Assembly (NCBI RefSeq): GCF_004135405.1
Contig: NZ_CP035491.1
Location: forward strand, 1,612,001 to 1,676,000
Direction: 5' to 3'
DNA from: Agromyces protaetiae
Lineage (GTDB): Bacteria; Actinomycetota; Actinomycetes; Actinomycetales; Microbacteriaceae
DNA: 64,000 nt
Part shown: in pieces, positions 31,223 to 56,996 of the stretch
Numbering within the stretch: the stretch's first letter is position 1
How the letters are laid out: the number at the start of each line of letters is the position of its first letter
The notes under the pieces: generated by a model
The model's input: only the letters and a program-made list of their open reading frames with translations
What the model was told of the DNA's origin: nothing
Database searches by the model: none
Position numbers and translations under genes: made by a program

Positions 31223-31227
31223 TGCCA

Positions 31228-31330: not shown

Positions 31331-31365
31331 CACCCCTCGACTTCCACCCCAGGAGACGCACCACC

Positions 31366-32358: not shown

Positions 32359-33299
32359 GCGCCACCATCGCACCCGGCCAGAACGTACCCGCCCCCGTCG
32401 GAGACGAGACCCGCGCGTTCACCGGCGGTGCTCCGCGTGCCGCGCGCGGCGGCGCCAGCCACCGTCGGCGCATCGTGTCGGTCGTCCTCTCGATCGTCGC
32501 CGTGATCCTCTTCGTCATCTTCGTCTTCCCCGTCTACTGGATGATCAACACCTCCTTCCAGCCCACGGGCGACATCATCAGCTCGAACCCGCACTTCTGG
32601 CCCGACAACTTCACGCTCCGCAACTACCAGCGCGTGTTGTTCGAACCCGGTCGTACGCCGTTCTTCCCGGCACTCGGCAACTCGCTCATGGTGACGCTGC
32701 TGACGGTCGCCATCGCCCTCCTCTTCTCCTTCCTCGCAGCCGTCGCGGTCACCCGGTTCCGGTTCAAGAGCCGACGCTGGTTCATCATCACGATCCTCGT
32801 GATCCAGATGATCCCCGGCGAGGCGACGATCGTCTCGGTCTTCCGCGTCATCGACGGCTGGCACCTCCTCAACACGATCATCGGCCTCACGATCGTCTAC
32901 GTCGCCGGTGTGCTGCCCTTCACGATCTGGACGCTCCGCGGGTTCGTCAACGGCGTTCCGGTCGACCTCGAAGAGGCCGCCATGATCGACGGATGCTCCA
33001 GGGCGGGCGCCTTCTGGCGGGTCACGTTCCCGCTGCTCGCCCCGGGCCTCGTCGCGACGGGTGTGTTCGGGTTCATCCAGGCGTGGAACGAGTTCCTCAT
33101 GGCGCTCGTGCTCAACGCCCGCCCCGAGATGATGACGCTGCCGGTGTGGCTGCGCACCTTCCTCGTCGCGAACGGGACGACCAACTGGGGCGGTGTCATG
33201 GCGGGCTCGACACTGATGGCGATCCCCGTCATCATCTTCTTCCTCATCGTGCAGGGACGGATGACGAGCGGCCTCGTCAGCGGAGCCGTCAAGGGATGA
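32355..33299 (+). CDS. Sugar ABC transporter permease, MalG type
   Basis: A 314-residue permease with six membrane segments. The EAA loop is VDLEEAAMIDGCSRAGAF (about 205-222), and NEFLMALVL is conserved near the end. It starts at GTG 32355, overlapping the stop of the MalF-type gene; AAGGAGG lies just upstream. Its own stop overlaps the GH3 gene start. Confidence 0.92.
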   Translation: MSATIAPGQNVPAPVGDETRAFTGGAPRAARGGASHRRRIVSVVLSIVAVILFVIFVFPVYWMINTSFQPTGDIISSNPHFWPDNFTLRNYQRVLFEPGRTPFFPALGNSLMVTLLTVAIALLFSFLAAVAVTRFRFKSRRWFIITILVIQMIPGEATIVSVFRVIDGWHLLNTIIGLTIVYVAGVLPFTIWTLRGFVNGVPVDLEEAAMIDGCSRAGAFWRVTFPLLAPGLVATGVFGFIQAWNEFLMALVLNARPEMMTLPVWLRTFLVANGTTNWGGVMAGSTLMAIPVIIFFLIVQGRMTSGLVSGAVKG

Positions 33300-34840: not shown

Positions 34841-35748
34841 AGCTCGGGATCGACATCGGAGGAACGAAGACGGCGGCGGTCGCGATCGGCGCCGACGGCG
34901 AACTGAGCGATCAGGTCAAGATGCCCACGGGCTTCGGCGCCGACGAGGTGCTCGCGACGGCGTTCCGGACGGTCGAGCGGATGAGCGAGATCGCCGGAGT
35001 CGAAGCGAGCGAGTTCGTCTCGATCGGGATCGGGATCCCCGGGGCGGTCGACGCGTCGACCGGTCGGGTCGCGCACGCGGTGAACCTCGGACTCAAGGGG
35101 CTCGATCTCGGTCCTCGGCTCGAGGACCGGCTCGGCGTCTCGGTGCGGGTGGAGAACGACGTGAAGGCCGCCGCGCTCGGCGCGCACCACCTGCTCGGCG
35201 TCGCCGACGGCGTGCGCGCGGACAGCATGGCCTACGTGAACTTCGGCACCGGTCTCGCCGCGGGCATCGTGCAGCACGGCGAGCTCCTGCGCGGTGCCTA
35301 CGGCGTCGCGGGCGAGATCGGGCACATCCCGGTCGACCCTGCCGGAATCGTGTGCGGGTGCGGGCAACGCGGATGTCTCGAGACGTTCGCGTCGGGACTC
35401 GCCATCGCTCGCACTTGGCCGACGGAGCATCCGCTGCCCGCCCGCGACCTGTTCGATCGAGCGGCCGCAGGCGAACCCCATGCGGTCGAGGTGCGCGAGC
35501 GCTTCCTGACGGGCGTCGCGACGGCGGTGCGGTTGCTCGTCCTCACGGTCGACGTGGACATCGTCGTAATCGGCGGCGGGCTCTCCGCGCTCGGTGACGA
35601 GCTTCTGGAAGGCACGCGCCGTATCCTCGAGAGTTGGGCCGCAGAGTCGGCCTTCCTCGCATCCATCGATCTGGCGCAGCGCGTCAAGGTCATCCCCGTC
35701 GGTTTCCCGGCGGCCGCCGTCGGCGCCGCCCTGGTAGGAGAGCTCTAA
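34837..35748 (+). CDS. ROK-family sugar kinase, probable N-acetylglucosamine kinase
   Basis: A 303-residue kinase. The phosphate-binding DIGGTKT is at 6-12. The catalytic Asp is in RVENDVKAAALG, and the ROK zinc motif is CGCGQRGCLE (about 172-181) after GEIGHIPVD. Between GH3 and NagB, GlcNAc 6-kinase is more likely than glucokinase, but the two cannot be told apart by motif. GTG overlaps the GH3 stop; TAATG joins it to nagB. Confidence 0.85.
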   Translation: MKLGIDIGGTKTAAVAIGADGELSDQVKMPTGFGADEVLATAFRTVERMSEIAGVEASEFVSIGIGIPGAVDASTGRVAHAVNLGLKGLDLGPRLEDRLGVSVRVENDVKAAALGAHHLLGVADGVRADSMAYVNFGTGLAAGIVQHGELLRGAYGVAGEIGHIPVDPAGIVCGCGQRGCLETFASGLAIARTWPTEHPLPARDLFDRAAAGEPHAVEVRERFLTGVATAVRLLVLTVDVDIVVIGGGLSALGDELLEGTRRILESWAAESAFLASIDLAQRVKVIPVGFPAAAVGAALVGEL

Positions 35749-36533
35749 TGGCCGAAGTCGTCATCGTCCGCGACCAGGAAGAGGCGGGGGCGCTCGTCGC
35801 CGGCGCCATCGTCGATCTGATCACGCGCAAGCCCGACGCCGTGCTCGGTCTCGCGACCGGCTCGACGCCGCTCGCGACGTATCGGGCGCTTGCGAATCGC
35901 ATCGCGGCCGACGGCGTCGACGTGCGGGGCGTGCGAGGGTTCGCGCTCGACGAGTACGTCGGCCTCCCGGCGGGCCACCCCGAGAGCTACCGCGCGGTCA
36001 TCACGCGCGAGGTCGTCGAGCCGCTGGGGCTCACGCCCGAGCTCATCCGGGTGCCGAACGGCGATCCCGACGGCATCGAGCACGCGGGCGCCGACTACGA
36101 GGCGGCGATCACGGCTGCGGGCGGCGTCGACATCCAGATCCTCGGAATCGGCCGCACGGGCCACATCGGCTTCAACGAGCCGGGCTCGTCGCTCGCGTCG
36201 CTCACGCGCGTGAAGACCCTCACCGAGCCGACGCGCATCGACAACGCGCGATTCTTCGACTCGATCGACCAGGTTCCCATGCACTGCATGACGCAGGGCA
36301 TCGGCACGATCCTGCGGGCCCGTCACCTGACGCTCCTCGCGTTCGGCGAGGCGAAGGCCGACGCCATCGCGGCCGCGGTCGAGGGCCCGGTGTCGGCGAA
36401 CCAGCCGGGCTCGGCGATCCAGCTGCACCCGCACACGACGGTCCTCGTCGACGAGGCGGCGGCGTCGAAGCTGCAGAACATCGACTACTACCGGTACGCG
36501 TGGGCGAACAAGCCCGTGTGGCAGGGTATCTGA
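35748..36533 (+). CDS. nagB: Glucosamine-6-phosphate deaminase
   Basis: Converts glucosamine 6-phosphate to fructose 6-phosphate and ammonia. At 261 residues it has normal length. The phosphate loop is GLATGSTP (about 34-41). The catalytic Asp is in FALDEYVGL; the ring-opening Asp/Glu/His are in GIGRTGHIGFNEPGS (about 131-145). It has SANQPGSAIQLHPHTTV near the end. It is the last gene of the operon. No nagA is present here; the only one in the window is at 44149. A stem-loop at 36575 follows. Confidence 0.96.
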   Translation: MAEVVIVRDQEEAGALVAGAIVDLITRKPDAVLGLATGSTPLATYRALANRIAADGVDVRGVRGFALDEYVGLPAGHPESYRAVITREVVEPLGLTPELIRVPNGDPDGIEHAGADYEAAITAAGGVDIQILGIGRTGHIGFNEPGSSLASLTRVKTLTEPTRIDNARFFDSIDQVPMHCMTQGIGTILRARHLTLLAFGEAKADAIAAAVEGPVSANQPGSAIQLHPHTTVLVDEAAASKLQNIDYYRYAWANKPVWQGI

Positions 36534-44148: not shown

Positions 44149-45318
44149 TCAGACGAGACGCGCCCCGGCGCCCCACACGGCCTCGACCGCCAGCTCGTCG
44201 GAGAGGAGTACGGCGTCGGCCGCGTAGCCCGCGTCGAGCCGGCCGAGATCGTGCGCGCGGCCGATGGCTGCGGCGGGCGTCACCGTGAGCGCGCCGACGG
44301 CCTCGACGAACGGGATGCCGCTCTCGACGACGGCGTTGCGGAGCGCGACGTCGAGCGTGAGCGTCGAACCTGCGATCGACCCCGTGTCGCGGAGGCGGGC
44401 GACGCCGTCGTTCACGACCACGGCGAGCGAGCCGAGGATGTAGTCGCCGTCGGCGGCACCCGTGGCGGCCATCGCGTCGGTGATCATCGCGACCCGGCCG
44501 GGCGCGCCCTGGAAGGCGAGCTTCACGACGTCGGGGTGCACGTGCACGCCGTCGTTCACGATCTCGAGCGTGACGTGGTCGGCGTGCATCGCCGCCACGA
44601 CCGGGCCCGGCGCCCGGTGGTGGATGCCGCGCATGCCGTTGAAGGCATGGGTCAGGATCGTCGCGCCCGCGCCGAACGCGGCGAGCGAGGTCTCGTAGTC
44701 GGCGCCCGTGTGCCCGACCGCGACGCGGACGCCCGCATCGGCGAACCGGCGGATCGCGTCGAGCGCACCCTCGTGCTCGGGCGCCATCGTGATCTGCACG
44801 AGCGTGCCGTCCGCTGCGGCCAGGAGCAGGTCGACCGCGTCGGCGTCGGCCGTGCGGAGCACCTCGGGGTCGTGCGCGCCCCGGAAGTCGTGGTCGAGGA
44901 AGGGGCCCTCGAGGTGCGCGCCGAGCACGCGCGGGTCGCGCGCGGCGACCGCGGCGATCGCGCGGAGGCGTTCGGCGAGCACCTCGACGGGCGCCGAGAC
45001 GAGCGAGCACACCGCCCGCGTCGTGCCGTGCGCCGTGTGCACGTCGAGCAGGGTCTCGATGCCCGTCTCGCCGTCTTCGACCGACGCCCCGCCGGCGCCG
45101 TGCGTGTGGAGGTCGATGAAGCCCGGCACGAGCCAGCGGCCCGCCGCGTCGACGACGTCGACGGAGACATCCTGAGCGCCTGCTGCGACCTGCTCACGCC
45201 ACTCGTCGCCGATGCCGCGCGCCGCGACCCGGTCGCCCTCGAAGCGCACCCACGCGTCGGTGATCGTGTCACCGCCGGTGACGAGGCGGGCGGAGTGGAT
45301 GACGGTCGAAGCGCTCAC
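44149..45318 (-). CDS. nagA: N-acetylglucosamine/galactosamine-6-phosphate deacetylase
   Basis: Removes acetate from N-acetyl amino-sugar 6-phosphates. At 389 residues it has normal length. Metal-site motifs are FIDLHTHGAGG (about 58-68), LGAHLEGPFL with the metal Glu (about 128-137), the VGHTGADY His, the THAFNGM His and the catalytic Asp in MITDAMAATG (about 273-282). GTG 45318 lies 6 bases after TATCGT, so it may have its own leaderless promoter besides the operon. It is the only deacetylase in the window; here it most likely acts on GalNAc-6-P (AgaA role) and perhaps also feeds NagB with GlcN-6-P. Confidence 0.93.
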   Translation of the reverse strand: MSASTVIHSARLVTGGDTITDAWVRFEGDRVAARGIGDEWREQVAAGAQDVSVDVVDAAGRWLVPGFIDLHTHGAGGASVEDGETGIETLLDVHTAHGTTRAVCSLVSAPVEVLAERLRAIAAVAARDPRVLGAHLEGPFLDHDFRGAHDPEVLRTADADAVDLLLAAADGTLVQITMAPEHEGALDAIRRFADAGVRVAVGHTGADYETSLAAFGAGATILTHAFNGMRGIHHRAPGPVVAAMHADHVTLEIVNDGVHVHPDVVKLAFQGAPGRVAMITDAMAATGAADGDYILGSLAVVVNDGVARLRDTGSIAGSTLTLDVALRNAVVESGIPFVEAVGALTVTPAAAIGRAHDLGRLDAGYAADAVLLSDELAVEAVWGAGARLV

Positions 45319-45324
45319 TCGAGA

Positions 45325-45330
45325 ACGATA
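45325..45330 (-). promoter_or_regulatory. Candidate -10 element for nagA
   Basis: TATCGT on the minus strand, 6 bases before GTG 45318, in the 16-base gap after the DeoR gene. It suggests nagA can also be expressed separately. Confidence 0.35.
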
Positions 45331-45334
45331 ACGC

Positions 45335-46120
45335 TCACGAGGCGACGATGACCTCGTAGCCCGCCTCACGGAAGCGCACGCGCTGGTCCTCCGTCGCCCC
45401 GCCGTCGGTGATGAGCGTGTCGAAGAGCGGTGCGCCGATCGCCGCGAACGCGCGCCGGTCGAGCTTCGACGCATCCGCCACGATGACCGCGCGCGCGGCG
45501 CGCGAGGCCATGAGCGCGTTGACGGCGGCCTCGCGCTCGTCGTGCGACGTCGGCCCCACGACCGCGTCGAGCCCGTTCACGCCGATGAACGCGAGATCGA
45601 GGCTGATGTTGCCGAGCACGCCGTCGGTGTAGGAGCCCACGAGCTCGTACGAGCGTGCGTGCACGATGCCGCCCGTCACGACGGTCTTGATCTGCGGGCG
45701 CATCGCGAGCTGCATGGCGATGTTGATCGCGTTGGTGACGACGGTGAGACCGGGGTCGGGCGCGGGCTCCATGATGTCGGCACGCGACATCAGGGCGTCG
45801 GCGATGGCGGTCGCCGTCGTCCCGCCGCACAGGCCGATGATGCCGCCGCGCGGAACGAGGTCGCTCGCGGCACGCGCGATCGCGGCCTTCGCGTCGGGAT
45901 TCTGCTGATGCTTGTACCGGATCGGCAGGTCGTAGGCGACCGAGTGCGCGACCGCGCCGCCGCGCGTGCGGGTGAGCAGCTGCTGCTGGGCGAGCGCGTC
46001 GAGGTCGCGACGCGCGGTCGCGGGGGAGACGCCGAGCCGCTCGACGACCTGGTCGACCTCGACCTGACCGTCCTCGGCGAGGAGGTCGAGCACGGCCGAC
46101 AGGCGTTCTGCACGATTCAT
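45335..46120 (-). CDS. DeoR/GlpR-family repressor of the amino-sugar cluster (AgaR-like)
   Basis: A 261-residue regulator. An N-terminal winged helix (about 4-60: VEVDQVVERLGVSPATARRDLDAL, TRTRGGAV) is followed by a DeoRC sensor domain with the sugar-phosphate loop GLCGGTTATAIA, and VTNAINIAM, GPTSHDEREAAVN and ADASKLDRRAF. DeoR-family proteins respond to phosphorylated sugars. It is encoded inside the GalNAc-type operon, overlapping the aldolase stop by 4 bases, and so likely controls it and the divergent ABC importer. Confidence 0.9.
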   Translation of the reverse strand: MNRAERLSAVLDLLAEDGQVEVDQVVERLGVSPATARRDLDALAQQQLLTRTRGGAVAHSVAYDLPIRYKHQQNPDAKAAIARAASDLVPRGGIIGLCGGTTATAIADALMSRADIMEPAPDPGLTVVTNAINIAMQLAMRPQIKTVVTGGIVHARSYELVGSYTDGVLGNISLDLAFIGVNGLDAVVGPTSHDEREAAVNALMASRAARAVIVADASKLDRRAFAAIGAPLFDTLITDGGATEDQRVRFREAGYEVIVAS

Positions 46121-46968
46121 ACGACCACGCTCCGTTCTCCGGCGAACAACACGAGCAGTCTGGCGGCTTCGGCGGCGACCGCGGAACGCCCCACTGCGAG
46201 GTACTTGCGCGAGTCGACCGTCGTCGGATGCTCCGCGAGGTACTCGCGGATCGCGTTCGTGAACTGCACGTTCAGGTGCGTCGAGACGTTGATCTTCACG
46301 AGCCCGGCGCGGATGCCGGCCGCGATGACGTCGTCGGCGACGCCCGACGAGCCGTGCAGCACGAGCGGCACGGGCACCCCGTCGCGCAGGCGCGCGACGA
46401 GGTCGAGGTCGAGGGCGGCCGTCCGCTCGGTCATGGCGTGCGACGACCCGACGGCGACGGCGAGGGCGTCGACGCCCGTGTCAGCCACGAAGCGGGATGC
46501 CTCGGCGGGATCGGTGCGGACGCCGGGCGCGTGCGCGCCGTCCTTCCCGCCGATCTCGCCCAGTTCGGCCTCGACCGCGACGCCCGCGGCGTGCGCCGCT
46601 GCGACGACCTGCCGCGTGACCGCGACGTTCTCGGCGAACGGCAGCTTCGACCCGTCGAACATGACCGACCCGAACCCGAGGTCGATCGCGCGGAGCGCGA
46701 GGGCGGCGTCTTCGGCGTGGTCGAGGTGGACGGCGACGTCGGCGGTCGACGCGTCGGCGATCGCGAGGGTCGCGAGCGCGATCGGGTCGAGCGCGCCGTG
46801 ATAGCCGACGCAGTTCTCGGAGAGCTGCAGGATGACGGGCAGTCCCGTCGACTCGGCGGCGGCGACGAGGGCCTCTGCCGTCTCGATGTGCAGCACGTTG
46901 AACGCACCGACCCCCGAGCCGCGCGCGGCGGCGTCGTCGAGCAGGGTGCGGGTCGGGGTCAGGGTCAT
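46117..46968 (-). CDS. Class II aldolase, probable tagatose-1,6-bisphosphate aldolase
   Basis: A 283-residue class II, zinc-dependent aldolase of the Fba/GatY/KbaY family. The catalytic/zinc segment is VAVHLDHAEDAALA (about 78-91) with HLDHA; EAELGEIGGKDG (about 136-147), the second zinc His region LVLHGSSGV and the phosphate loop KINVSTHLN follow. Position beside a PfkB kinase and an AgaS-like protein favours tagatose 1,6-bisphosphate (to DHAP and glyceraldehyde 3-phosphate) over fructose 1,6-bisphosphate, but sequence alone does not settle this. Confidence 0.87.
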   Translation of the reverse strand: MTLTPTRTLLDDAAARGSGVGAFNVLHIETAEALVAAAESTGLPVILQLSENCVGYHGALDPIALATLAIADASTADVAVHLDHAEDAALALRAIDLGFGSVMFDGSKLPFAENVAVTRQVVAAAHAAGVAVEAELGEIGGKDGAHAPGVRTDPAEASRFVADTGVDALAVAVGSSHAMTERTAALDLDLVARLRDGVPVPLVLHGSSGVADDVIAAGIRAGLVKINVSTHLNVQFTNAIREYLAEHPTTVDSRKYLAVGRSAVAAEAARLLVLFAGERSVVV

Positions 46969-47924
46969 TCGGGCTCCGTGGCGTCGGTGTCGATGTCGTC
47001 ATCGATGGCGATCTCGCGCGCGAGCGCGGCGTGGTCGGGGTGCAGTTCGCCCGCGAGCGGCATGAGCACCGCTGAGGCCGACCAGGCCGCGGCACGGCGG
47101 GCGAGGCTTTCGAGGTCGGGGGCTTCGGACGCGTCCGAGGCTTCCGCGAGCGCGAGCGCGATCGCCGCGACGGCGGCATCGCCCGCACCTGTCGCGTTGC
47201 CGTGGAGGGTGCGGCCGAGCCGCGCCCGGAGGGCGCGCCCTTCGGGGTCGAGCACGAGCATGCCGTCGGCGCCGAGCGACGCGACGACGATGCGGGCCCC
47301 GAGCGCCTGCAGACGGCGGGCGCCCGCGAGCGGGTCGTGCTCGCCCGTCGCCTCGACCAGTTCGTCGCGATTGGGCTTCACGGCGGCCGCCCCGGCGCGC
47401 GCCGCCGCGAGGAGCGCCGCGCCCGGGACATCCGCCACGACCGGCACGCCGTGCGCCGTGAGCGTCGCGACGAGCTCGCCGATCGCGTCGGCGTGGAGAC
47501 CCGGCGGCAGGCTGCCCGAGATCGCGACGGCCCGTGCGCGGCCGCCGAGCGTCGCCGCTTCGGCGAGCAGGGCGGATGCCTCGTGGGCCGCGAGTGCGGC
47601 GCCGCGCTCGTTGAGCACGGTCGCCTCGCCCGAGCGACGGTCGACGATCGCGATGCTCCGCCTGGTCGACCCCGCGACGGGCAGGAGCCGGGTCGGGATG
47701 CCGCTCGCCGCCGCCTCGGCCGCGAACTCATGGCCCGACGCGCCGCCGACCGTCGCGAGTGCGGTCACCTCGCGGCCCTCGGCGTGGAGGACGCGTGCGA
47801 CGTTGAGTCCCTTGCCGCCGGCGCGCCCGTGCCCGGTGTCGACGCGATGGGTCTCGCCGGGGGCGAGCCGGTCGACATGCCACGTGAGATCGAGGGCGGG
47901 ATTCGGGGTGACGGTGAGGATCAT
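46965..47924 (-). CDS. PfkB-family kinase, probable tagatose-6-phosphate kinase
   Basis: A 319-residue kinase of the 1-phosphofructokinase/LacC branch: MILTVTPNPALDLTW at the start, the AGGKGLNVARVL substrate loop (about 35-46), VKPNRDEL and the anion-hole GNATGAGDAAVAA (about 244-256) with the catalytic Asp. LacC-type enzymes phosphorylate tagatose 6-phosphate at C1; FruK acts on fructose 1-phosphate. With no fructose PTS nearby and an aldolase next door, the LacC role fits better. Coupled overlaps flank it on both sides. Confidence 0.88.
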   Translation of the reverse strand: MILTVTPNPALDLTWHVDRLAPGETHRVDTGHGRAGGKGLNVARVLHAEGREVTALATVGGASGHEFAAEAAASGIPTRLLPVAGSTRRSIAIVDRRSGEATVLNERGAALAAHEASALLAEAATLGGRARAVAISGSLPPGLHADAIGELVATLTAHGVPVVADVPGAALLAAARAGAAAVKPNRDELVEATGEHDPLAGARRLQALGARIVVASLGADGMLVLDPEGRALRARLGRTLHGNATGAGDAAVAAIALALAEASDASEAPDLESLARRAAAWSASAVLMPLAGELHPDHAALAREIAIDDDIDTDATEPE

Positions 47925-48955
47925 GAGGCGGGGTCGCTCTCGACAGCGTGGACGTCGGCGCCGTGCGCGCGGTCGAGCCTGCCCGCCGCGAGGTCGCGCG
48001 CTCGGAGTGCCGTGCCGAGCACGCCCGCGTCGTCGCCGAGGGCGGCCTTCACGAGCCGCGGGCGGCGGTGGAAGGAAAGGAGCGCGTCGAGCCGGTGCTG
48101 CACGGGCTCGAAGAGGTCGCGCCCGGCTTCGGCGAGCCCGCCGCCGATGACGACGAGCTCGGGACCGAGGATCGCGACGAGCGGCGCGAGCGCGCGGGCG
48201 AGCGCCTCGACGGCGTCGTCCCACACCCGCTCGGCGACGATGTCTCCGGCCTTCGACGCGTCGAGCACCTCGCGCGCGCCGGGCGTCTTGCGCCCCGAGC
48301 GCTCGGAGTATCGGCGCGCGATCGCCCCTGCCGACGCGATCGTCTCGAGACATCCCACCGCTCCGCACGCGCAGAGCTCGCCCTCGGGCCAGATGAGCGC
48401 GTGGCCGAGCTCGCCGGCGTACCCGCCCGCCGTGATCGGCCTGCCGCCCGCGATGATCGCGCTCGCGATGCCCGTGCCGATCGCGAGGACGACGACGTCG
48501 TCGGCCCCGCGCGCCGCGCCCAGCCGATGCTCGGCGTCGCCCGCCGAGCGCACGTCGTGCCCGAAGGCCACGGGGAGCCCCAGCGCGTGCTCGGCGAGAT
48601 CGCGCAAGGGCGCGTCGTGCCAGCCCAGGTTCGATGCGAACAGGCCGATGCCGCGTGCTTCGTCGACGAGCCCCGGCACGCTGAGGCCAGCGGCGACGGG
48701 CGAGACATCCGGGAAGTCCTCGCGGTACTCGGCCGCGAGCGATGTGATGTGAGCGACGATCGCGCCCGCCGGGTCGGCCTCGTCGTGCGGCGTCGGCGTT
48801 CGGCGCACGCCGAGCACGCGGCCCGACTCGTCGACGATCGCCGACTTCGTGTCGGTGCCGCCGACGTCGAACGCGAGCACCGCCGCGCCGGTCCCGAGGA
48901 GCGGGTCGCGCGGGTCGTCGGAAGCGGGGGCCGCGGCGGGGGTGTCAGACATCAT
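47921..48955 (-). CDS. ROK-family kinase, probable N-acetylgalactosamine kinase
   Basis: A 344-residue ROK kinase. DVGGTDTKSAIV (about 30-41) binds ATP, GHDVRSAGDAE carries the catalytic Asp, GELGHALI precedes the zinc motif CACGAVGCLE (about 195-204), and VVIGGGLAEAG lies near the end. In the cluster it is the only candidate to make GalNAc-6-P after ABC import, replacing the PTS of enteric aga operons. It is distant from the ROK kinase at 34837 (different zinc-motif residues and extra N-terminus), consistent with another sugar. Confidence 0.85.
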   Translation of the reverse strand: MMSDTPAAAPASDDPRDPLLGTGAAVLAFDVGGTDTKSAIVDESGRVLGVRRTPTPHDEADPAGAIVAHITSLAAEYREDFPDVSPVAAGLSVPGLVDEARGIGLFASNLGWHDAPLRDLAEHALGLPVAFGHDVRSAGDAEHRLGAARGADDVVVLAIGTGIASAIIAGGRPITAGGYAGELGHALIWPEGELCACGAVGCLETIASAGAIARRYSERSGRKTPGAREVLDASKAGDIVAERVWDDAVEALARALAPLVAILGPELVVIGGGLAEAGRDLFEPVQHRLDALLSFHRRPRLVKAALGDDAGVLGTALRARDLAAGRLDRAHGADVHAVESDPAS

Positions 48956-49854
48956 GCGTCAAGGATGACCGACCGGGTGAGGTTGCGGGGGCGGTCGGGG
49001 TCGAGGCCGCGATCGACCGCGCGCGCGAGCGCGACGCGCTGCGCGCGGACGAGCTCGGCGAGCGGGTCGAGGCGACCCTGTTCGAAGTGCGCGCCGGTCG
49101 CGGCGACCTCGCCCGCGAGTCCTTCGGGGGCGTCGCCGAACTGCCACGTCACGCGGCCCGGGGCCGCGATCGCGAGCGGGCCGTGGCGGTACTCCATCGA
49201 CGGGTAGGCCTCGGTCCACGACTGCGACGCCTCGCGCATCTTGAGCGCGGCCTCTTGCGCGAGCCCGTACGACCAGCCGAGGCCGAGGAAGGAGTACTGG
49301 TCGGCGTCGATGAGGACGGGCGGCAGGTCTTCTGCGACGGCCGTGCGCGCGTCGGCGACGGCCTGCTCGAGGTCTTCGCCGAGGCTCGCGCGGAAGAGCG
49401 CGAGCGCGGTCGTCGCGAAGCGCGTCTGCACGACCGACTCCTCGTCGGCGAAGGGCAGCGTGACGGCCTCGTCGACGAGGGGGACGAGCGGCGAGGATGC
49501 GTCGCCGATGACGCCGATCGTCTTGACGCGCCCGCGCGCCCGCTCGACGTACTGCAGGACCTCGGTCGTCGTGCCCGAGCGCGTGAGGGCGACGATCGCG
49601 TCGTAGTCGCGGGCGTCGGGGGCTTCGGATGCCGCGAACGCGTCGGTCTCGCCGTGGCCGGCCCGCTCGCGGAGGATCGCGTAGGACTGTGCCATGAACC
49701 ACGAGGTGCCGCAGCCGACGACGGCGATGCGCTCGCCGCGAGCGGGAAGGAGCGCCTGGAGGTCGGTGAGACCGGCGGCCCGGGCCCACAGGTCGGGCTG
49801 GCTCGCGAGCTCCGTCGCCATGTGCGAGGCGTGGGCGGCGGTGGGGTCGGTCAC
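48952..49854 (-). CDS. SIS-domain sugar isomerase/deaminase, AgaS-like
   Basis: A 300-residue protein with two SIS domains, like the isomerase half of GlmS: VVGCGTSWFMAQSYAI (about 46-61), VALTRSGTTTEVLQ and SQSWTEAYPSMEYRHGPLA. AgaS proteins of this type deaminate and isomerise galactosamine 6-phosphate to tagatose 6-phosphate. GTG 49854 is preferred over upstream ATGs because GGAGGAG sits properly before it and the family starts here. It is the first gene of the six-gene minus operon; its stop overlaps the ROK kinase start. Confidence 0.85.
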   Translation of the reverse strand: MTDPTAAHASHMATELASQPDLWARAAGLTDLQALLPARGERIAVVGCGTSWFMAQSYAILRERAGHGETDAFAASEAPDARDYDAIVALTRSGTTTEVLQYVERARGRVKTIGVIGDASSPLVPLVDEAVTLPFADEESVVQTRFATTALALFRASLGEDLEQAVADARTAVAEDLPPVLIDADQYSFLGLGWSYGLAQEAALKMREASQSWTEAYPSMEYRHGPLAIAAPGRVTWQFGDAPEGLAGEVAATGAHFEQGRLDPLAELVRAQRVALARAVDRGLDPDRPRNLTRSVILDA

Positions 49855-50174
49855 AGGGGTCTCCTCCGGTCGAAAGCGTGACGAATCCATGATTGCATCT
49901 GATCGAATCATAGAGTGAACGATCATCGCAACGATTGAAAGTCTGCCATGCGCGGATGGGAATCGCCGCAGGAAAGTTCCGATAACGAAATTGGCAATAG
50001 TGTTGACGACCGACGCATTGCGTCATAGATTCGCCCTCACGGTGCTCGAAGTTGATTGATTCGGGCGCGAAACGTTCAGGAAACATCACACAGCACGTGC
50101 GAAGACCTGATCCCGGCGTCGACACGGACTCCACACGTGCCGCGCGACCACCCACCAGAGTGAGGAAGACATCG
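49855..50174. promoter_or_regulatory. Divergent control region of the GalNAc-type regulon
   Basis: A comparatively AT-rich 320 bases between the SIS operon and the ABC importer. Around 49886-49940 are repeated GATTG/GATCGAATC elements (GATTGCATC, GATCGAATC, CGATTGAAAG) of the kind bound by DeoR proteins. On the minus strand TATGAT near 49910 is a good -10 box. The plus-strand promoter is listed separately. The DeoR regulator encoded in the operon is the likely ligand. Confidence 0.5.
50003..50031 (+). promoter_or_regulatory. Sigma-70 promoter of the ABC importer with a palindrome in the spacer
   Basis: TTGACG (50003-50008) and TAGATT (50026-50031) are exactly 17 bases apart. The spacer contains GACGC-ATT-GCGTC (50012-50024), a perfect dyad that would place a bound repressor between the two boxes. 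The start of transcription would be near 50038, about 135 bases before the ATG. Confidence 0.65.
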
Positions 50175-51425
50175 ATGAAGAAGTCACTGCGGTTCTCCGC
50201 GGCGATCGCGCTCGCGGCCACCGCGACGCTCACGCTCGCGTCCTGCGGTTTCGGCGGCGACGCCGGCGGCGACGACGCGGCGAGCGGCAAGACCACGCTC
50301 GACCTGCTCGTGCCGAGCTACTCCGACAACACCCAGGGCCTCTGGGAAGACGTCATCGACGGGTTCGAAGCCGCGAACCCCGACATCACCGTCAACCTCG
50401 AGGTGCAGTCGTGGGACAACCTCGACTCCGTCATCACGACCAAGATCTCGGGCGGCGAAGCCCCCGACATCTTCAACGGCGGCCCCTTCGCCGGCTACGT
50501 CGCCGACGACCTCCTCTACCCGGCCGCCGACGTCGTCTCGCCCGACACGCTGAGCGACTTCCAGGACTCGTTCCTCGCCAACGCCGAGGTCGACGGCACC
50601 GCCTACGCGCTGCCCCTCATCGCCTCGGCGCGCGCGCTCTTCGTCAACAACGCCCTCCTCGAGCAGGCAGGCGTCGCCGAAGCGCCCACCACGTGGGACG
50701 AACTCCTCGACGCTGCGACGAAGGTCTCGGCGCTCGGCAACGGCATCGCCGGCTACGGCATGCCGCTCGGCTCCGAAGAGGCGCAGGCCGAAGCGGCCGT
50801 GTGGCTCTGGGGCGGCGGCGGCACGTTCGGCGACGCGGACGCGATCACGATCGACGACCCGTCGAACCTCCCCGGTGCCGAGCAGATCAAGAAGATGATC
50901 GACGCGGGCGCCACGCAGGCCGACCCGGGCTCGACCGACCGCTCGCCGCTCATGGACATCTTCATCCAGGGCAAGATCGGCATGCAGGTCGGCCTCCCGC
51001 CGACGGTCGGCCAGATCGCCGAGGGCAACCCCGACCTCGACTACTCGATCGTCCCGATCCCCACGAAGGACGGCTCGGCCTTCACCCTCGGCGTCATGGA
51101 CCAGCTCATGGCATTCAAGAACGACGAGGACAAGCAGGACGCCATCACGAAGTTCTTCGACTACTACTACTCGGCCGACGTGTACGTGCCGTGGGTGCAG
51201 ACCGAAGGCTTCCTCCCCGTCACGAAGTCGGGCGCCGAGGCGCTCTCGGGCGAAGAGGCCCTCAAGCCCTTCCTCGACGTGCTCCCTGGCGCGCAGTTCT
51301 ACCCGAGCACCAACACGCAGTGGGCCGCCGCCGACGGCGCGTTCAAGTCGCTCTTCGGCCAGATCCAGACGAAGCCCGCACAGGATGTCCTCACGGAGAT
51401 CCAGGCGCAGGTCGACGCGGGCTGA
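50175..51425 (+). CDS. Sugar ABC transporter substrate-binding lipoprotein (second system)
   Basis: A 416-residue solute-binding lipoprotein: signal MKKSLRFSAAIALAATATL ending in lipobox LASC (Cys 24), then a Gly/Asp linker and a CUT1-type core (VQSWDNLDSVITTKISGGEAPD, PVTKSGAEAL). GAGGAAG precedes ATG 50175. It lies opposite the GalNAc-type catabolic operon and beside secreted hexosaminidases; beta-GalNAc-containing sugars or GalNAc are the inferred ligands. Confidence 0.92.
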   Translation: MKKSLRFSAAIALAATATLTLASCGFGGDAGGDDAASGKTTLDLLVPSYSDNTQGLWEDVIDGFEAANPDITVNLEVQSWDNLDSVITTKISGGEAPDIFNGGPFAGYVADDLLYPAADVVSPDTLSDFQDSFLANAEVDGTAYALPLIASARALFVNNALLEQAGVAEAPTTWDELLDAATKVSALGNGIAGYGMPLGSEEAQAEAAVWLWGGGGTFGDADAITIDDPSNLPGAEQIKKMIDAGATQADPGSTDRSPLMDIFIQGKIGMQVGLPPTVGQIAEGNPDLDYSIVPIPTKDGSAFTLGVMDQLMAFKNDEDKQDAITKFFDYYYSADVYVPWVQTEGFLPVTKSGAEALSGEEALKPFLDVLPGAQFYPSTNTQWAAADGAFKSLFGQIQTKPAQDVLTEIQAQVDAG

Positions 51426-51477
51426 TCCCCGAACCCACCTCGCACGCACGAACGGAAGGATCGGTGACTCTCGACCA

Positions 51478-52428
51478 ATGAGCACCTCGACCGAGACCTC
51501 ATCGATCATCGCGGGGGCGGCCTCTTCGGGCCGCCCCCGCCCCGGCGGGTCGGCACGCGACCTGCTGCGCGCGCTCCCCTGGATCGCCCCCGCGCTCCTC
51601 CTCATCTTCGGCGTCGTGGTCTACCCCGCCGGCGTCATGTTCTTCAACTCCACGCGGGACATCTCGCTCTCGGGCCTCGACAAGGGCTCAGCGGGCTTCG
51701 ACAACTTCGCCGAGGTGTTCGCGTTCCCCTACTTCTGGCCGATCTTCTTCCGCACGATCGTGTGGGTCGTGGTCGTCGTGGGCGTGACCGTGCTGCTCTC
51801 GCTCGGCCTCGCGCAGATCCTCGACAAGGCCTTCCCCGGCCGGAAGATCGTGCGCCTCGCGGTCATCATCCCGTGGGCCGCCTCGGTCGTCATGACGACG
51901 ATGGTCGTCTTCTACGGCCTCGAGCCGTACTTCGGCATCATCAACACGTTCTTGGTCGACGTCGGCCTCATCGACACCCCCGAGGGCTACGGCTGGACGA
52001 GAAACCCCGGCACGGCGTTCGCGTGGTCGATCGTCGTCGCGGTCTTCGTGTCGCTCCCGTTCACGACGTACACGATCCTCGCGGGCCTCGCGACCGTCCC
52101 CGGCGACGTCGTCGAAGCCGCCAAGATGGACGGCGCCGGCCCCGCCCGCACCTACTTCTCGGTCGTGTTGCCCCAGCTCCGCGGGGCGCTCAGCGTGGCC
52201 GTCCTCATCAACATCATCAACGTGTTCAACTCGCTGCCGATCCTGAAGGTCATGACCGGATCGATCCCCGGCTACGACGCCGACACGATCATGACGATGA
52301 TCTTCAAATACATCCAGAACCAGCACAAGATCGACGTCGCGAGCGCGCTCTCGGTCGTCGCGTTCCTCATCGTCATCGTGATCGTCGCGGCGTACGTGAA
52401 GGTCGTCAAGCCCATGCAGGAGGTCTGA
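51478..52428 (+). CDS. Sugar ABC transporter permease, MalF type (second system)
   Basis: A 316-residue permease with six membrane segments; the EAA loop is DVVEAAKMDGAGPARTYF (about 205-222). ATG 51478 lacks a close ribosome binding site. The GGAAGGA at 51453 instead serves GTG 51464, which opens a five-codon ORF (MTLDQ) whose stop overlaps this ATG, so translation may be coupled. Alternatively one base is missing and the true N-terminus begins MTLDQ. Confidence 0.9.
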   Translation: MSTSTETSSIIAGAASSGRPRPGGSARDLLRALPWIAPALLLIFGVVVYPAGVMFFNSTRDISLSGLDKGSAGFDNFAEVFAFPYFWPIFFRTIVWVVVVVGVTVLLSLGLAQILDKAFPGRKIVRLAVIIPWAASVVMTTMVVFYGLEPYFGIINTFLVDVGLIDTPEGYGWTRNPGTAFAWSIVVAVFVSLPFTTYTILAGLATVPGDVVEAAKMDGAGPARTYFSVVLPQLRGALSVAVLINIINVFNSLPILKVMTGSIPGYDADTIMTMIFKYIQNQHKIDVASALSVVAFLIVIVIVAAYVKVVKPMQEV

Positions 52429-52431
52429 GCG

Positions 52432-53364
52432 ATGACCGTCACCGCCACCCGAACCCTCACCACCCAGGGCGACGCAGCGTCGAAGAGCGCCGGCTCCGGG
52501 GCATCCGGACGCCGCAGGCGCTACACCGAAGACCAGGTGACCCTGCCGCGCGTGCTCCTCCGCATGCTCGCCGGGCTCATCGTGCTCGTCGTCTTCATGC
52601 TGCCGTATCTCATCATGTTCTTCGGCTCGGTGAAGACGAAGGCGCAGATCCGCTCGGTCGACCCAACCTACTTCCCGACGGAGTGGCACTGGGAGAACTA
52701 CCTCACGATGTGGTCGACGCCCGAGACGCCGCTCGTGCAGAACCTCGTCTCGACGATCGTCATCTCGGTGTTCGCGACGCTGCTCGTGCTCGCCGTGTCG
52801 CTGCCGGCCGCGTACTACACCGCGCGGTTCCGGTTCCCGGGGCGGCTCGTGTTCCTCTTCCTCGTCATCGTGACGCAAATGCTCCAGCCCGCCGTGCTCA
52901 CGTCGGGCCTCTTCCGCCAGTTCCTCGCGCTCGGCCTCATGGACACGTGGGCCGCGATGATCTTCATCAACGCCGCGTTCAACCTCTCGTTCGCGGTATG
53001 GATCATGCACTCGTTCTTCGCGGGCATCCCGAAGGAGATCGACGAGGCCGCCCAGATCGACGGCGCAGGTCGCCTCACGGTGCTCTTCCGCATCAACCTG
53101 CCGCTCGTCTGGCCCGGCATCGTGACCGCCATCGTGTTCACGTTCGTCGCGTGCTGGAACGAGTTCGCCGCGTCGCTCGTCATCCTCTCGACGGCGGGCA
53201 ACCAGCCGCTGTCGGTCGCGCTCACGAAGTTCGTCGGCCAGTACGAGACGAGCTGGCAGTACGTGTTCGGCGTCTCGATCGTCGCGATCGTGCCCGTCGT
53301 CGTGCTCTTCATGCTCATCGAGAAGCGCCTCGTCGGCGGGCTCACGGCGGGCAGCGTCAAGTAG
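52432..53364 (+). CDS. Sugar ABC transporter permease, MalG type (second system)
   Basis: A 310-residue permease with six membrane segments; EAA loop KEIDEAAQIDGAGRLTVLF (about 202-220) and NEFAASLVIL further on. CAGGAGG lies 8 bases before the ATG. As in the first system, no ATPase gene is present. A long hairpin follows. Confidence 0.92.
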   Translation: MTVTATRTLTTQGDAASKSAGSGASGRRRRYTEDQVTLPRVLLRMLAGLIVLVVFMLPYLIMFFGSVKTKAQIRSVDPTYFPTEWHWENYLTMWSTPETPLVQNLVSTIVISVFATLLVLAVSLPAAYYTARFRFPGRLVFLFLVIVTQMLQPAVLTSGLFRQFLALGLMDTWAAMIFINAAFNLSFAVWIMHSFFAGIPKEIDEAAQIDGAGRLTVLFRINLPLVWPGIVTAIVFTFVACWNEFAASLVILSTAGNQPLSVALTKFVGQYETSWQYVFGVSIVAIVPVVVLFMLIEKRLVGGLTAGSVK

Positions 53365-53401
53365 CAGGCTGCGCGGCTGCGCGGCTGCCGCCTCGCTTCG
53401 G

Positions 53402-53474
53402 GTTTCAGGTGATCGCGCGCTGTTCAGGACCGTTTCGTCGATCTGCTCCTGAATAGCGCGCGATCTCCTGAAAC
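53402..53474. terminator. Long bidirectional hairpin between converging genes
   Basis: 28-base arms, 53402-53429 and 53447-53474, match at 26 positions with a 17-base loop. It is placed between the permease stop (53364) and the GH20 stop (53521). The arm ends carry TTCAGGA/TCCTGAA, as in the repeat at 8008-8089. Bidirectional terminator is the likely role; an extragenic repeat element is an alternative. Confidence 0.65.
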
Positions 53475-53520
53475 AGTATTGGGCGGATGGTTCGGACGGC
53501 GACGGATGCGGCGACGGGGG

Positions 53521-55218
53521 CTACAGCCACGGGATGTCGCGCTCGCGGTAGAACCCGACGCCCGCGGCATCCCAGTGCGTCGCGAGCTGGACGAGCCGCC
53601 CGGTGTACTCGGTGAAGTCTCGCGACCCCGACTCGGCGCCGGCGGACGGCGACCAGCCGATCTCGGCGATGCCCGCGGCGCGCGGGAAGAACATGAACTC
53701 GATGTCGCCGATCGTCCGGATCGTCTCGGTCCAGAGCGGTGCGACGACGCCGAGGATGTCGGACTCGCCGACGCCCGGCAGGATCGCCGTCGGCTCCCAC
53801 CGCAGCGCCTCCTGCGAGTTCGTCGGACCCTTCGCCCAATCGGCGCCGATGCCGCGGCCGGTGGGACTCTGAGGCTCGTCGGTGTAGACCATGTCCATGT
53901 AGGCCGCGTCGGCGGGCATCAGGAGAACCTTGCCGCCCTGGTCGACGAAGGACTTGGCAAGGGCGGCCGAGTCGCCCTCGGGCTTCGTGAAACCCCAGTA
54001 CCCGCCGATCGTCCCGGCAGGAAGGGTTTTCGAGACGCCGATCTCGTGCCAGCCGATGACGGTCTTTCCGGTCGCGGCGGCAGCCGCGGTGATGCGGTTC
54101 ACGAGGTCGAGGTAGTCGGCTTCGGGCGTCGAGAGCGATTCGTCGCCGCCGACGTGGATCCAGGGGCCCGGGGTCATCGCGGCGACCTCGCCGAGCACGT
54201 CTGCGAGGAATCGGTTCGTGACCTCGGCCCGCTCGGGCGACGCGCACAGCGACGAGAAGCCGACCTCGATGCCCTGATACGGCTCGGGCGCGACGCCGTC
54301 GCAGTTCAGTTCGGGGTAGGCGTTGAGCGCCGCATTCGTGTGACCCGGCAGGTCGATCTCGGGCACGATCGTGACGAACCGCGCGGCCGCGTATTCGACG
54401 ATCTCGCGATAGTCGTCCTTCGAGTAGTAGCCGCCGCTTTCGCCGTACGCCGAAGTCCGGCCGCCGAGTTCGGTGAGGTTCGGCCACGAGTCGATCCGGA
54501 TACGCCAGCCCTGATCGTCGGTGAGGTGGAGCTGGAGCACGTTGAACTTGAGGGCGGCGATGTCGTCGATGAATCGCTCGACCTCGTCGACCGAGAAGAA
54601 ATGACGGGCGACGTCGAGCGATGCGCCCCGGAACGCGAATCGCGGAGCGTCCGCGACGGTGATCGCCGGGGCGATCCATCCGCCCGGGGGTGCGCTCGCG
54701 CCCGCCCCGACGCCGACCCCGTCGATCGCGGCCGGCAGCAGTTGCCGAAGTGATTGCACGCCCCAGAAAAGGCCGGCCGGGGCATCCGCCGTGATCTGCA
54801 CGCCGTTCTCGGCGATCGCGAGCGTGTACGCCTCGCTCGCGGGGTCGCCGCCGTCGCGCAGCGCGAGCGTGATGTCGGCGGTGCTCTCGGCCGGTCGAAC
54901 GGATGCCTCGGACACGCCGGCTTCGACGGGGATGTCGTAGCCCGTGGCGGTGCGCAGCCGATCTGCGAGGAGGGATGCGACGCCCGCGACCGCGGAGTCT
55001 GCCGTGGCCTCCTCACCCAGGGTCACGACACGGGTCTCGGGCGTGATCGTGAAGGGCGCATCGTCCTCGTGCAACTCGAAGGAGGCGGGAAGGGGGATGA
55101 TCCCGGGCACAGGCGGGGCTCCGTTCTCGGCGTCGCGCGCCGCGCATCCCGCGAGCAGGGTCGCGGCGACGGCGGCCGCGACGAGGGCGGTCGTGGCGCT
55201 TCGAATGCGTCGATGCAT
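53521..55218 (-). CDS. GH20 beta-N-acetylhexosaminidase, lipoprotein
   Basis: A 565-residue secreted enzyme: signal peptide with lipobox LLAGC (Cys25), N-terminal GH20b domain (about 38-165) and a GH20 barrel starting at FAFRGASLDVARHFF. The catalytic Asp-Glu pair is D359-E360 in HVGGDES, used in substrate-assisted cleavage; HLTDDQGWRI and PEIDLPGHTNAAL are also conserved. It would release GlcNAc or GalNAc at the cell surface for the divergent ABC importer. A closely similar paralogue lies just upstream, so this is a tandem duplication. Confidence 0.93.
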   Translation of the reverse strand: MHRRIRSATTALVAAAVAATLLAGCAARDAENGAPPVPGIIPLPASFELHEDDAPFTITPETRVVTLGEEATADSAVAGVASLLADRLRTATGYDIPVEAGVSEASVRPAESTADITLALRDGGDPASEAYTLAIAENGVQITADAPAGLFWGVQSLRQLLPAAIDGVGVGAGASAPPGGWIAPAITVADAPRFAFRGASLDVARHFFSVDEVERFIDDIAALKFNVLQLHLTDDQGWRIRIDSWPNLTELGGRTSAYGESGGYYSKDDYREIVEYAAARFVTIVPEIDLPGHTNAALNAYPELNCDGVAPEPYQGIEVGFSSLCASPERAEVTNRFLADVLGEVAAMTPGPWIHVGGDESLSTPEADYLDLVNRITAAAAATGKTVIGWHEIGVSKTLPAGTIGGYWGFTKPEGDSAALAKSFVDQGGKVLLMPADAAYMDMVYTDEPQSPTGRGIGADWAKGPTNSQEALRWEPTAILPGVGESDILGVVAPLWTETIRTIGDIEFMFFPRAAGIAEIGWSPSAGAESGSRDFTEYTGRLVQLATHWDAAGVGFYRERDIPWL

Positions 55219-55263
55219 GCCTATCCTGTCGGGTTCGAGCGGGTCGGTGCGGTGTGCGACGCG

Positions 55264-56996
55264 CTACTCGCGCCAGTCCACTCCGCGCACCCGGAAGAAG
55301 TCGACGTCTGCGGCGTCCCAATGCGTGCCGAGGTTGACGAGCCGCTCGAGGTAGCCGGGCACGTCGCGGTCGCCGCCCGACGCGGCCTTGAGGCCGGCGG
55401 CGACGCCGGTACCGCCGTCTGATCCGGCTCCGGGGGCTTGGGCGACCAGCCGATCTCGGCGATGCCCGCGGCGCGCGGGAAGACCATGAACTCGGCGTCG
55501 TCGATCGAGGTGATCGTCTCGGTCCAGAGCGCCGCGACGACGCCCAGGATGTCGTCCTCGTCGACGCCGGGGACGATCGCGGTCGGCTCCCAGCCGTAGG
55601 CCTCTTCGATCGTCGTCGCGCCCTGGGCCCACTCGAGGCCGAGGCTGTGGCCGAGTGCGTTCTGCGGGCGGTCGGGGTAGACCATGTCCATGTAGGCGAC
55701 GTCGGCGGGCATCATGAGGAGCTTGCCGCCCTGGTCGACGAACGATTTCGCGAGGTCGGCCGAGTCGCCCTCGGGCCGTGTGAAGCCCCAGTAGCCGCCG
55801 ATCATGCCGTCGGGCAGCGACGTCGAGGCACCCATCTCGTGCCAGCCGACGACGGTCTTGCCGGTCGCCGCGGCGATCGAGGTGATCCGGTTCACGAGGT
55901 CGACGTAGTCGGCCTTCGGGGTGTTGTGCGCTTCGTCGCCGCCGACGTGGATCCACGGCCCGGGGGTCATCGCGGCGAGTTCGCCGAGCACGTCGGCGAG
56001 GAATCGGTCGGTGACCTCGGCGCGTTCGGGCGCAGCGCAGAGCGACGAGAACCCGACGTCAATGCCTGCGTACGACCCTGGGTCGACCCCGTCGCACGTG
56101 AGCTCGGGGTAGGCGTGCAGCGCCGCGTTCGTGTGGCCGGGCAGGTCGATCTCGGGCACGATCGTGACGAACCGCGCCGCCGCGTACTCGACGATCTCGC
56201 GGTAGTCGTCCTTCGTGTAGAACCCGGGTCGCGACCCGTTCAGCTCGACCGAGGTCTGCCCGCCGACCTCGGTGAGCTTCGGCCAGGAGTCGATCCGGAT
56301 GCGCCAGCCTTGGTCGTCGGTGAGGTGCAGCTGCAGCACGTTGAGTTTGAGCGCGGCGATCTCGTCGATGTAGCGCTTCACGTCGTCGACCGGGAAGAAG
56401 TGGCGGGCGACGTCGAGCGAGGCGGCGCGATACGAGAAGCGCGGTGAGTCCTCGATCGAGACGGCGGGCGCGACCCAACCGCCGTCGGGCTGGGCGGCTC
56501 CGGCGCCGTCGATCTCGGCCGGAAGCAGTTGCCGAAGCGATTGCACGCCCCAGAAGAGCCCGGCCGGGGCATCCGCCGTGATCCGCACGCCGTCGTCGCC
56601 GACCTCGAGCGCGTACGCCTCGCTCGAAGGGTCGCCGCCGTCGCCGAGGGCGAGGGCGATGTCGGCGGTGCCCTGAGCCTGTCGAAGGGATGTTTCGGGC
56701 TCGCCCTGCAAGACGGGGATCTCGTACCCCGTGGCGATGCGGAGCCGTGCGGCGAGGAGTTCGGCGACATCTGCGACCGCGGGCGACCCGGCGTCGCCCT
56801 CGACGACGATCCGAGTCGATTCGGTGAGCCTGAACGGCTCGTCACCGGTGTGCGGTTCGTACGAGTCCGGAAGCGGGATGATCCCCGGCACGGAGTCCGC
56901 GTTCGCGACGTCGCCGGGCGCGCAGCCCGCGAGCAGGGTCGCGAGGACGGTCGTGAGGACGAGGGCGCTCGTCGCGGTGCGGATGCGTCGTCGCAT
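55264..56996 (-). pseudogene. GH20 beta-N-acetylhexosaminidase lipoprotein, one frameshift (probably sequence error)
   Basis: ATG 56996 opens a signal peptide with lipobox LLAGC and a full GH20 enzyme, with catalytic D354-E355 in HVGGDEA and the same HLTDDQGW and GHTNAAL motifs as its paralogue. Near the C-terminus, at the G run 55432-55436, the frame is lost after GWSPKPP. One added base restores about 57 residues ending RVRGVDWRE with the stop at 55264, colinear with the paralogue C-terminus, for 577 residues. Only the last 10 percent is affected, so even if real the catalytic site remains. The N-terminal domain contains SLRQAQGT, encoded by a repeat-like element at 56669-56690. Confidence 0.85.
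56669..56690. repeat. CCCTGAGCCTGTCGAAGGG element within the GH20 gene
   Basis: This near-dyad sequence is known to me as a short repeat scattered in many high-GC genomes. Here it is in frame and encodes SLRQAQG, where the paralogue has VRPAES, so it replaces ordinary coding sequence in a non-catalytic strand. Confidence 0.5.

Follow-up and report, generated by a model that had tools for sequence, protein, structure and literature searches.

The window analysed here is a stretch of 64,000 nucleotides from the single-contig, 3.68 Mb genome of Agromyces protaetiae (NZ_CP035491.1, positions 1,612,001 to 1,676,000). Our subject is a six-gene operon on its minus strand, with the gene order SIS protein, ROK kinase, PfkB kinase, class II aldolase, DeoR regulator and NagA deacetylase, which is likely to serve the catabolism of N-acetylgalactosamine (GalNAc) without a phosphotransferase system (PTS). 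The first gene (48952-49854; GTG start, with GGAGGAG 6 nt upstream) encodes a SIS-fold amino-sugar-phosphate deaminase/isomerase that is GlmD-like and outside the AgaS family, and for which we propose the conversion of galactosamine-6-phosphate (GalN-6-P) to tagatose-6-phosphate (tagatose-6-P). It is followed by a ROK sugar kinase with a His before the catalytic Asp (xHD), a proposed GalNAc 6-kinase (47921-48955), a PfkB-family kinase of the 1-phosphofructokinase (1-PFK)/LacC group, proposed to act on tagatose-6-P (46965-47924), a class II aldolase whose closest solved structure is AgaY (1gvf; 46117-46968), a DeoR-family regulator (45335-46120) and a NagA-type deacetylase (44149-45318), all with gene starts as placed in this analysis. 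Four of the five junctions are 4-bp overlaps, and the gap between deoR and nagA measures 16 bp. An ATP-binding cassette (ABC) importer adjoins the operon divergently, with two GH20 genes beyond it. Profile scans confirmed the family of each operon gene, and all genes named in a first-pass annotation of the window were present in the order, positions and strands that it gave. Its statement that the operon lacks a PTS also held: no enzyme II gene was found among the operon and importer genes, and HPr is encoded twice elsewhere in the genome.

The SIS protein shares 76-81% identity with its counterparts in ten Agromyces loci. Among 80 relatives recruited by their SIS gene, the ROK kinase was matched in all 80, PfkB in 75, DeoR in 73, the aldolase in 71, the importer binding protein in 45 and NagA in 24 (at least 28% identity, anywhere in a locus, many loci stopping at contig ends), a recurrence of partners indicating that the gene grouping is not due to chance. 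In a sample of 249 Microbacteriaceae genomes, the SIS protein was matched at 1e-40 in 76, of which 35 carry an orthologue (at least 60% identity); some genomes are present in both locus collections, the 80 relatives and the orthologue loci with flanks. The latter are all 35 orthologues minus that of A. protaetiae itself (one, L169, stops at a contig end), and these 34 loci contain a ROK gene in 34, an aldolase in 32, and PfkB and NagA in 30 each. A SIS subfamily of 55-59% identity (11 loci) is accompanied by genes of the same kinds, arranged differently, the full set of SIS, ROK, NagA, PfkB, aldolase and DeoR being together in five (L130, L132-L135) and partial or scattered in the remaining six. 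In a third subfamily of 42-53% identity (L141-L149, L204-L209) the 15 loci show an aldolase in 9, DeoR in 13 and NagA in only 1, so that the members of the SIS family probably do not all act on a single substrate. An aldolase is present in 22 of the 30 loci with SIS homologues below 60% identity (L130-L149, L194-L197, L204-L209).

The SIS protein, AgaS and NagB

The SIS protein was first labelled AgaS-like, which did not hold: it scored 26.7 bits on the AgaS model TIGR02815, with a cut-off of 529.2, and lies nearest to GlmD-type glucosamine-6-phosphate (GlcN-6-P) deaminases. Those AgaS proteins that occur in Microbacteriaceae reached 417-507 bits on this model, themselves slightly below its cut-off. 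They are 375 aa long, against 300 aa for the SIS protein, and a profile alignment of the two gave 24% identity. The SIS protein has the SIS fold of the GlmD/NagB-II group, and by profile and structure it is closer to GlmD/GlmS than to AgaS. It stayed below the NCBIfam equivalog cut-offs for both GlmD (82.6 vs 580 bits) and NagB-II (46.2 vs 430 bits), and is 20-31% identical to structures of the GlmD/NagB-II type (2cb0, 2dec, 1j5x, 8eol). Since identity is only about 25%, family likeness does not reveal which substrate the enzyme prefers. Alignment A1 comprised 46 chosen loci and the window. The SIS tree, which excluded three wrong-frame rows from the own genome, FrlB and 3fj1, placed SIS and AgaS each on one side of a branch with support 100, and a union of SIS and AgaS against GlmS/GlmD/TM0813 was neither demonstrated nor rejected, with an approximately unbiased p value (p-AU) of 0.366. 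The earlier objection to a GalNAc function, that the SIS protein might cluster with GlmS-like or other isomerases, is borne out in part, by profiles and structures and not by the deep order of the tree. Assignment as a NagS-like dehydratase of N-acetylglucosamine-6-phosphate (GlcNAc-6-P) was rejected, NagS being placed near MurQ (PMC12680351) and the SIS protein being of the GlmS/GlmD kind.

The window contains a second amino-sugar cluster, missed by the first-pass annotation, which lies 8 kb from the operon at 28635-36533 on the plus strand and is of the type that serves N-acetylglucosamine (GlcNAc). It consists of a ROK-family regulator (28635-29885), a second solute-binding protein (29936-31222), a permease (31366-32358, from the open reading frame list) and a further one ending at 33299, a GH3 beta-N-acetylhexosaminidase-like protein (33296-34840; 192.6 bits, cut-off 207), a second ROK kinase of the Asn-Asp type that is NagK-like by position (34837-35748), and a canonical NagB, glucosamine-6-phosphate deaminase (35748-36533; 393.7 bits, cut-off 326; TIGR00502 245 bits, cut-off 236.9). 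There is no deacetylase gene in this cluster, which seems to depend on the NagA of the other operon, so that the two share one deacetylase. The strongest PF01182 match, at 2.58 Mb, was rejected as NagB and read as a 6-phosphogluconolactonase beside zwf.

A NagB match (1e-30) was found in all 35 genomes with a SIS orthologue versus 143 of the 214 others (Fisher p 3.5e-6, uncorrected for relatedness). Across the 249 genomes, 178 had a match at 1e-30 and 90 exceeded the curated cut-off; among the orthologue genomes 25 did so and the other 10 were slightly below it (229-236 vs 236.9 bits). Measured to NagB midpoints, SIS and NagB are at most 20 kb apart in 26 of the 35 and at most 50 kb apart in 31. 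As NagB is present in every genome with a SIS orthologue, the SIS enzyme is no stand-in for NagB.

AgaS was found in 13 of the 249 genomes, and a KbaZ homologue adjoins it in three of the nine such loci that were read; the A. protaetiae genome has no AgaS. The genome G227 carries a true AgaS (473.8 bits) between glyA and a ROK-aldolase-DeoR group, followed by NagA, NagB, NagK and GH3, and gave no SIS match at 1e-40. Two genomes of the same genus, G126 and G179, have a SIS gene at that place, with glyA on its other side and NagA, NagB and NagK after it, and in a third, G057, SIS precedes ROK-aldolase-DeoR and another DeoR-like gene takes the place of glyA. The AgaS gene of G227 is inverted, indicating a replacement of the SIS gene at the same locus rather than an altered allele. 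The accepted role of AgaS is that of a GalN-6-P deaminase/isomerase (PMC12118421, PMC5583593), and since it occupies the SIS position in G227, we take as the simplest reading that the SIS enzyme performs the same step, although this swap is a single event in one genome.

Kinases, deacetylase and aldolase

The ROK kinase matches PF00480 with 194.6 bits and has kept the catalytic Asp in an HD motif. The residue before this Asp was His in 113 of 113 scorable rows linked to a SIS orthologue (106 distinct) and Asn in 20 of 20 rows beside NagB. ROK proteins linked to a more distant SIS had His in 7 and Gln in 7 of 14 rows; of the four within 6 kb of an AgaS gene, two had His, one Gln and one Ser (one His row is G227, and two of three are His/Gln when it is left out). 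Nine rows in other places comprised seven with His, one with Asn and one with Gly. This count omits one gap row, rows with an internal stop and rows shorter than 240 aa. In the NagK of Plesiomonas the corresponding contact has been described: N104 touches GlcNAc, is assigned to the 3-OH of the sugar, and its change to Asp increases the apparent Km for this sugar about 45-fold, from 98 to 4400 (PMC10031466). A change from Asn to His or Gln could suit the axial 4-OH of GalNAc. The His signature is no proof of a GalNAc kinase, because of the seven His rows that occur elsewhere. More distant ROK kinases (41-44% identity) at loci L193 and L198 share the His-Asp motif, and no SIS match was seen at these two loci.

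The deacetylase scored 232.3 bits on TIGR00221 (cut-off 225.65) and is the only NagA above this cut-off in the genome, hence it must serve GlcNAc as well. The NagA of Streptomyces coelicolor acts on both GlcNAc-6-P and GalNAc-6-phosphate (GalNAc-6-P) (PMC12680351, Table 1), and a review tells the same of the E. coli enzyme (PMC12118421). A pair of NagA genes is present in each of six loci (L112, L113, L155, L158, L161, L163), the first copy located behind DeoR and the second next to NagB. In a quick NagA tree, with rows from ten of the loci L008-L087 and, from L110 onwards, from every locus read that satisfied a filter for length and stops, the six NagB-side copies fell into one 15-row clade (support 99) and the six DeoR-side copies into a 24-row clade that holds the NagA of the window (support 86).

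Of the two lower enzymes, the first had been named a LacC-type kinase and the second a class II aldolase to be compared with GatY; the broad groups stand, and the narrow labels LacC and GatY fit only loosely. PfkB exceeds the cut-off of the 1-PFK/hexose kinase model TIGR03168 (221.1 vs 216.4 bits) and is far below that of the LacC model TIGR01231 (113.2 vs 409.55 bits), its best solved relatives being LacC proteins (96.9 bits), followed by 1-PFK (80.7 bits). The aldolase exceeds the cut-off of the general ketose-bisphosphate aldolase model TIGR00167 (224.2 vs 215.6 bits) and not that of the GatY/KbaY model TIGR01858 (218.4 vs 443.55 bits); its best solved relative is the tagatose-bisphosphate aldolase AgaY with 181.9 bits, versus 173.7 for the top fructose-bisphosphate aldolase. 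A private kinase and aldolase would be sensible if the product of the SIS enzyme were not fructose-6-phosphate (fructose-6-P), which would need neither.

The operon PfkB is the only strong 1-PFK-type match in the genome, the next reaching 72.3 bits. On this ground its assignment as the fruK of a fructose PTS was rejected, though such a PTS may be encoded elsewhere. E. coli FruA gave no match in five stretches of the own genome, two of them around the HPr genes, and a FruB-like EIIA domain is encoded near one of these two genes. A second full-length class II aldolase gene lies at 1.98 Mb, and a further class II aldolase of the genome (L109, G000:C1:2459835-2460676) is represented by two PF01116 matches that adjoin each other, each in an open frame of its own. 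ARAGORN called a tRNA-Ser(CGA) at 46711-46801 on the plus strand, antisense within the aldolase gene, which is probably a false positive, as only L152 among eight related loci gives such a call.

The proposed pathway and its alternatives

Whereas the genes, their arrangement and recurrence, and the AgaS displacement were read directly, we infer every substrate in the following scheme. GalNAc, probably released outside the cell by beta-hexosaminidases, would enter through the ABC importer and be phosphorylated by the ROK kinase to GalNAc-6-P, from which NagA would produce GalN-6-P. The SIS enzyme would deaminate and isomerise this to tagatose-6-P, PfkB would phosphorylate it to tagatose-1,6-bisphosphate, and the class II aldolase would split the latter. 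DeoR would control the divergent promoters, and GlcNAc would be handled by the adjacent NagK-NagB cluster, borrowing the NagA of the operon. We regard this GalNAc reading as the best supported because NagB is encoded elsewhere in the same genomes, AgaS has taken the place of SIS in G227, and the kinases carry a His/Gln-Asp signature. The route first suggested for the window, PTS-free with a ROK kinase, an ABC importer and tagatose intermediates, is thus retained, without the AgaS label and with LacC and GatY as loose likenesses. We lean slightly towards a further conclusion, that Microbacteriaceae have built their own GalNAc pathway from GlcNAc-type parts, with a new GalN-6-P deaminase/isomerase family akin to GlmD and a His/Gln-type ROK GalNAc kinase.

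Several observations weigh against the GalNAc reading. The closest relatives of the SIS protein, in sequence as well as in fold, are GlcN-6-P deaminases. Five of the seven His rows found in other places come from loci that have no SIS, PfkB or aldolase (G016, G023, G025, G193, G212) and that nevertheless keep the His-Asp ROK kinase and DeoR, with NagA and/or NagB close by; those of G023, G025 and G212 also keep the importer, at 73-91% identity. A SIS gene is located elsewhere in these three genomes (L133, L204 and L205, respectively), each with an aldolase and a PfkB-like gene, while G016 has AgaS twice elsewhere, once beside KbaZ, and genome searches of G193 found neither a SIS nor an AgaS match. 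AgaS coexists with a SIS orthologue in 3 of the 35 genomes (G091, G148, G226), the clusters of G057, G126, G179 and G227 showed no PfkB gene, and 8 of the 30 loci with a more distant SIS homologue show no aldolase. Four genomes with a SIS homologue below 60% identity (G004, G071, G088, G204) gave no NagB match, and there the SIS enzyme could be a GlcN-6-P deaminase. The glycosidase context was considered as a pointer to the sugar and rejected: 125 neighbour open reading frames were taken from 35 loci and 120 of them scanned (five short ones omitted), and the 25 most frequent of the 115 Pfam families included no GalNAc-specific glycosidase by name. Three members of these families are Gfo/Idh/MocA-like, the group to which GH109 belongs.

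The loci that keep the ROK kinase, DeoR and importer without SIS indicate that the upper part of the pathway may also serve GlcNAc. An operon whose importer, ROK kinase and NagA take both sugars, with only SIS, PfkB and the aldolase specific to GalNAc, overlaps with the GalNAc reading. Such breadth is favoured by the need for one NagA to serve both sugars in this genome, by the dual activity of the Streptomyces enzyme (PMC12680351) and by the proximity of NagA and/or NagB to the ROK and DeoR genes of the SIS-less loci, three of them with the importer. Against this, a separate GlcNAc importer and an Asn-type kinase are encoded next door, and two types of NagA occur together in six loci. A truly broad upper part seems doubtful to us, though worth keeping in mind.

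A second possibility is that the operon is another pathway for GlcNAc or chitosugars, in which SIS would be a GlcN-6-P deaminase of the NagB-II/GlmD type, and PfkB and the aldolase an operon-bound copy of upper glycolysis. The likeness of SIS to such deaminases fits with this, but all 35 orthologue genomes already have a NagB, mostly near the operon, fructose-6-P requires no private kinase or aldolase, the residue in the ROK active site differs, and SIS has been replaced by AgaS in G227, so that we judge it improbable. It is very unlikely that the substrate is a different amino sugar or a glycosylamine, such as N-acetylmannosamine or an unusual 2-amino sugar, with a ketose phosphate other than tagatose-6-P, since NagA accompanies 30 of the 34 flanked orthologues and AgaS sits in the SIS place of G227, even if the 15 most distant SIS loci mostly keep an aldolase (9) and DeoR (13) with a single NagA among them.

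Phenotypes of Cryobacterium were also considered. AgaS was found in 2 of 30 named cluster-bearing genomes searched (of the 80 loci), those of C. tagatosivorans and C. psychrotolerans. The former carries the SIS cluster and has been described as using GalNAc and forming acid from tagatose, and GalNAc is named in 3 of 19 descriptions of new Cryobacterium species (PMC10067761). However, the GalNAc use of C. tagatosivorans cannot be credited to the SIS operon because AgaS coexists with it, and this line of proof was rejected.

Compared with known systems, the logic of the pathway is familiar, and the deaminase and kinase types look new. The AgaK of Shewanella is not known to belong to the ROK proteins. 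Catabolism of GalNAc without a PTS and through a kinase of its own has a precedent in this genus, whose Aga pathway (agaP, agaK, agaA-II, agaS) resembles the present one in PTS-free uptake, an ATP-dependent kinase, deacetylation and deamination (PMC2996990). It differs in that Shewanella uses a permease, an outer-membrane protein and AgaS (PMC2996990), whereas Agromyces has an ABC importer, a His-Asp ROK kinase and a GlmD-like SIS enzyme. The aga operon of E. coli K-12 (L170) shares the DeoR-family regulator, the deacetylase, a SIS deaminase/isomerase and a class II tagatose-bisphosphate aldolase, but relies on PTS uptake, AgaS and KbaZ, none of which was found in the Agromyces operon. GlmD and NagB-II deaminases differ from the SIS protein in sequence (20-31% identity) and in genomic context, since SIS is accompanied by its own kinase and aldolase, with NagB encoded separately. 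The AgaS of Microbacteriaceae comes from the same bacterial family and holds the same cluster place in G227, and differs in length and protein family. The transport systems listed as specific for GalNAc include one of the ABC type, LnbABC (PMC5583593).

The literature searched, with most subscription journals outside it, contained no account of such a GalNAc pathway in Microbacteriaceae and no paper on a bacterial ROK kinase that forms GalNAc-6-P; for Agromyces together with this sugar it yielded a review on extremophiles. A survey of gut genomes takes AgaS as its marker of GalNAc use, arguing that the GlcNAc pathway contains no homologue of it (PMC5583593). If the GalNAc reading is true, AgaS-based rules would miss operons such as this one, with AgaS in only 3 of 35 orthologue and 2 of 30 named genomes, and the pair of SIS and a His/Gln-type ROK kinase would be a signature separating GalNAc from GlcNAc use in AgaS-negative genomes. 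One active-site residue (Asn to His/Gln) may then separate GalNAc from GlcNAc kinases within the ROK family, which makes a testable case.

Importer, operator and glycosidases

The importer genes, on the plus strand, encode a solute-binding lipoprotein (50175-51425) and two permeases (51478-52428 and 52432-53364). A Gibbs search of 59 SIS/importer intergenic regions, that of the window included, returned ATGATTGC-nn-TGATY-like sites. These sites represent the best motif of the 59 regions, and the only strong match in the window, ATGATTGCATCTGATC (read on the plus strand) at 49889-49904, scored 20.2, with the runner-up in the 64 kb at 10.8. The block is largely conserved among 13 aligned loci, and we consider this site a candidate DeoR operator. 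No strong copy of the intergenic motif was found near the GH20 genes.

Past the importer, and oriented toward it on the minus strand, lie the gene of a GH20 beta-N-acetylhexosaminidase lipoprotein (53521-55218) and a second GH20 gene (55221-56996), which shares 72% identity with it over 525 residues. Both genes are present as first reported, though the second does not stay in frame up to its 3' end, where the part matching residues 528-564 of the first is in another frame (~55273-55383), reflecting either a real frameshift or a sequencing error. We associate the two with the GalNAc system by position only, and GH20 enzymes do not discriminate GalNAc from GlcNAc.

Two Microbacterium loci have a PL8 lyase gene no more than 9 kb away from the SIS operon (L040:16304-18454 and L045:15639-18074). 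The lyase of L045 is nearest to a putative secreted lyase (411 bits), followed by chondroitin AC lyase (386), xanthan lyase (365) and hyaluronate lyase (271). Locus L044 contains a sulfatase together with a GH20 match and a NagA match.

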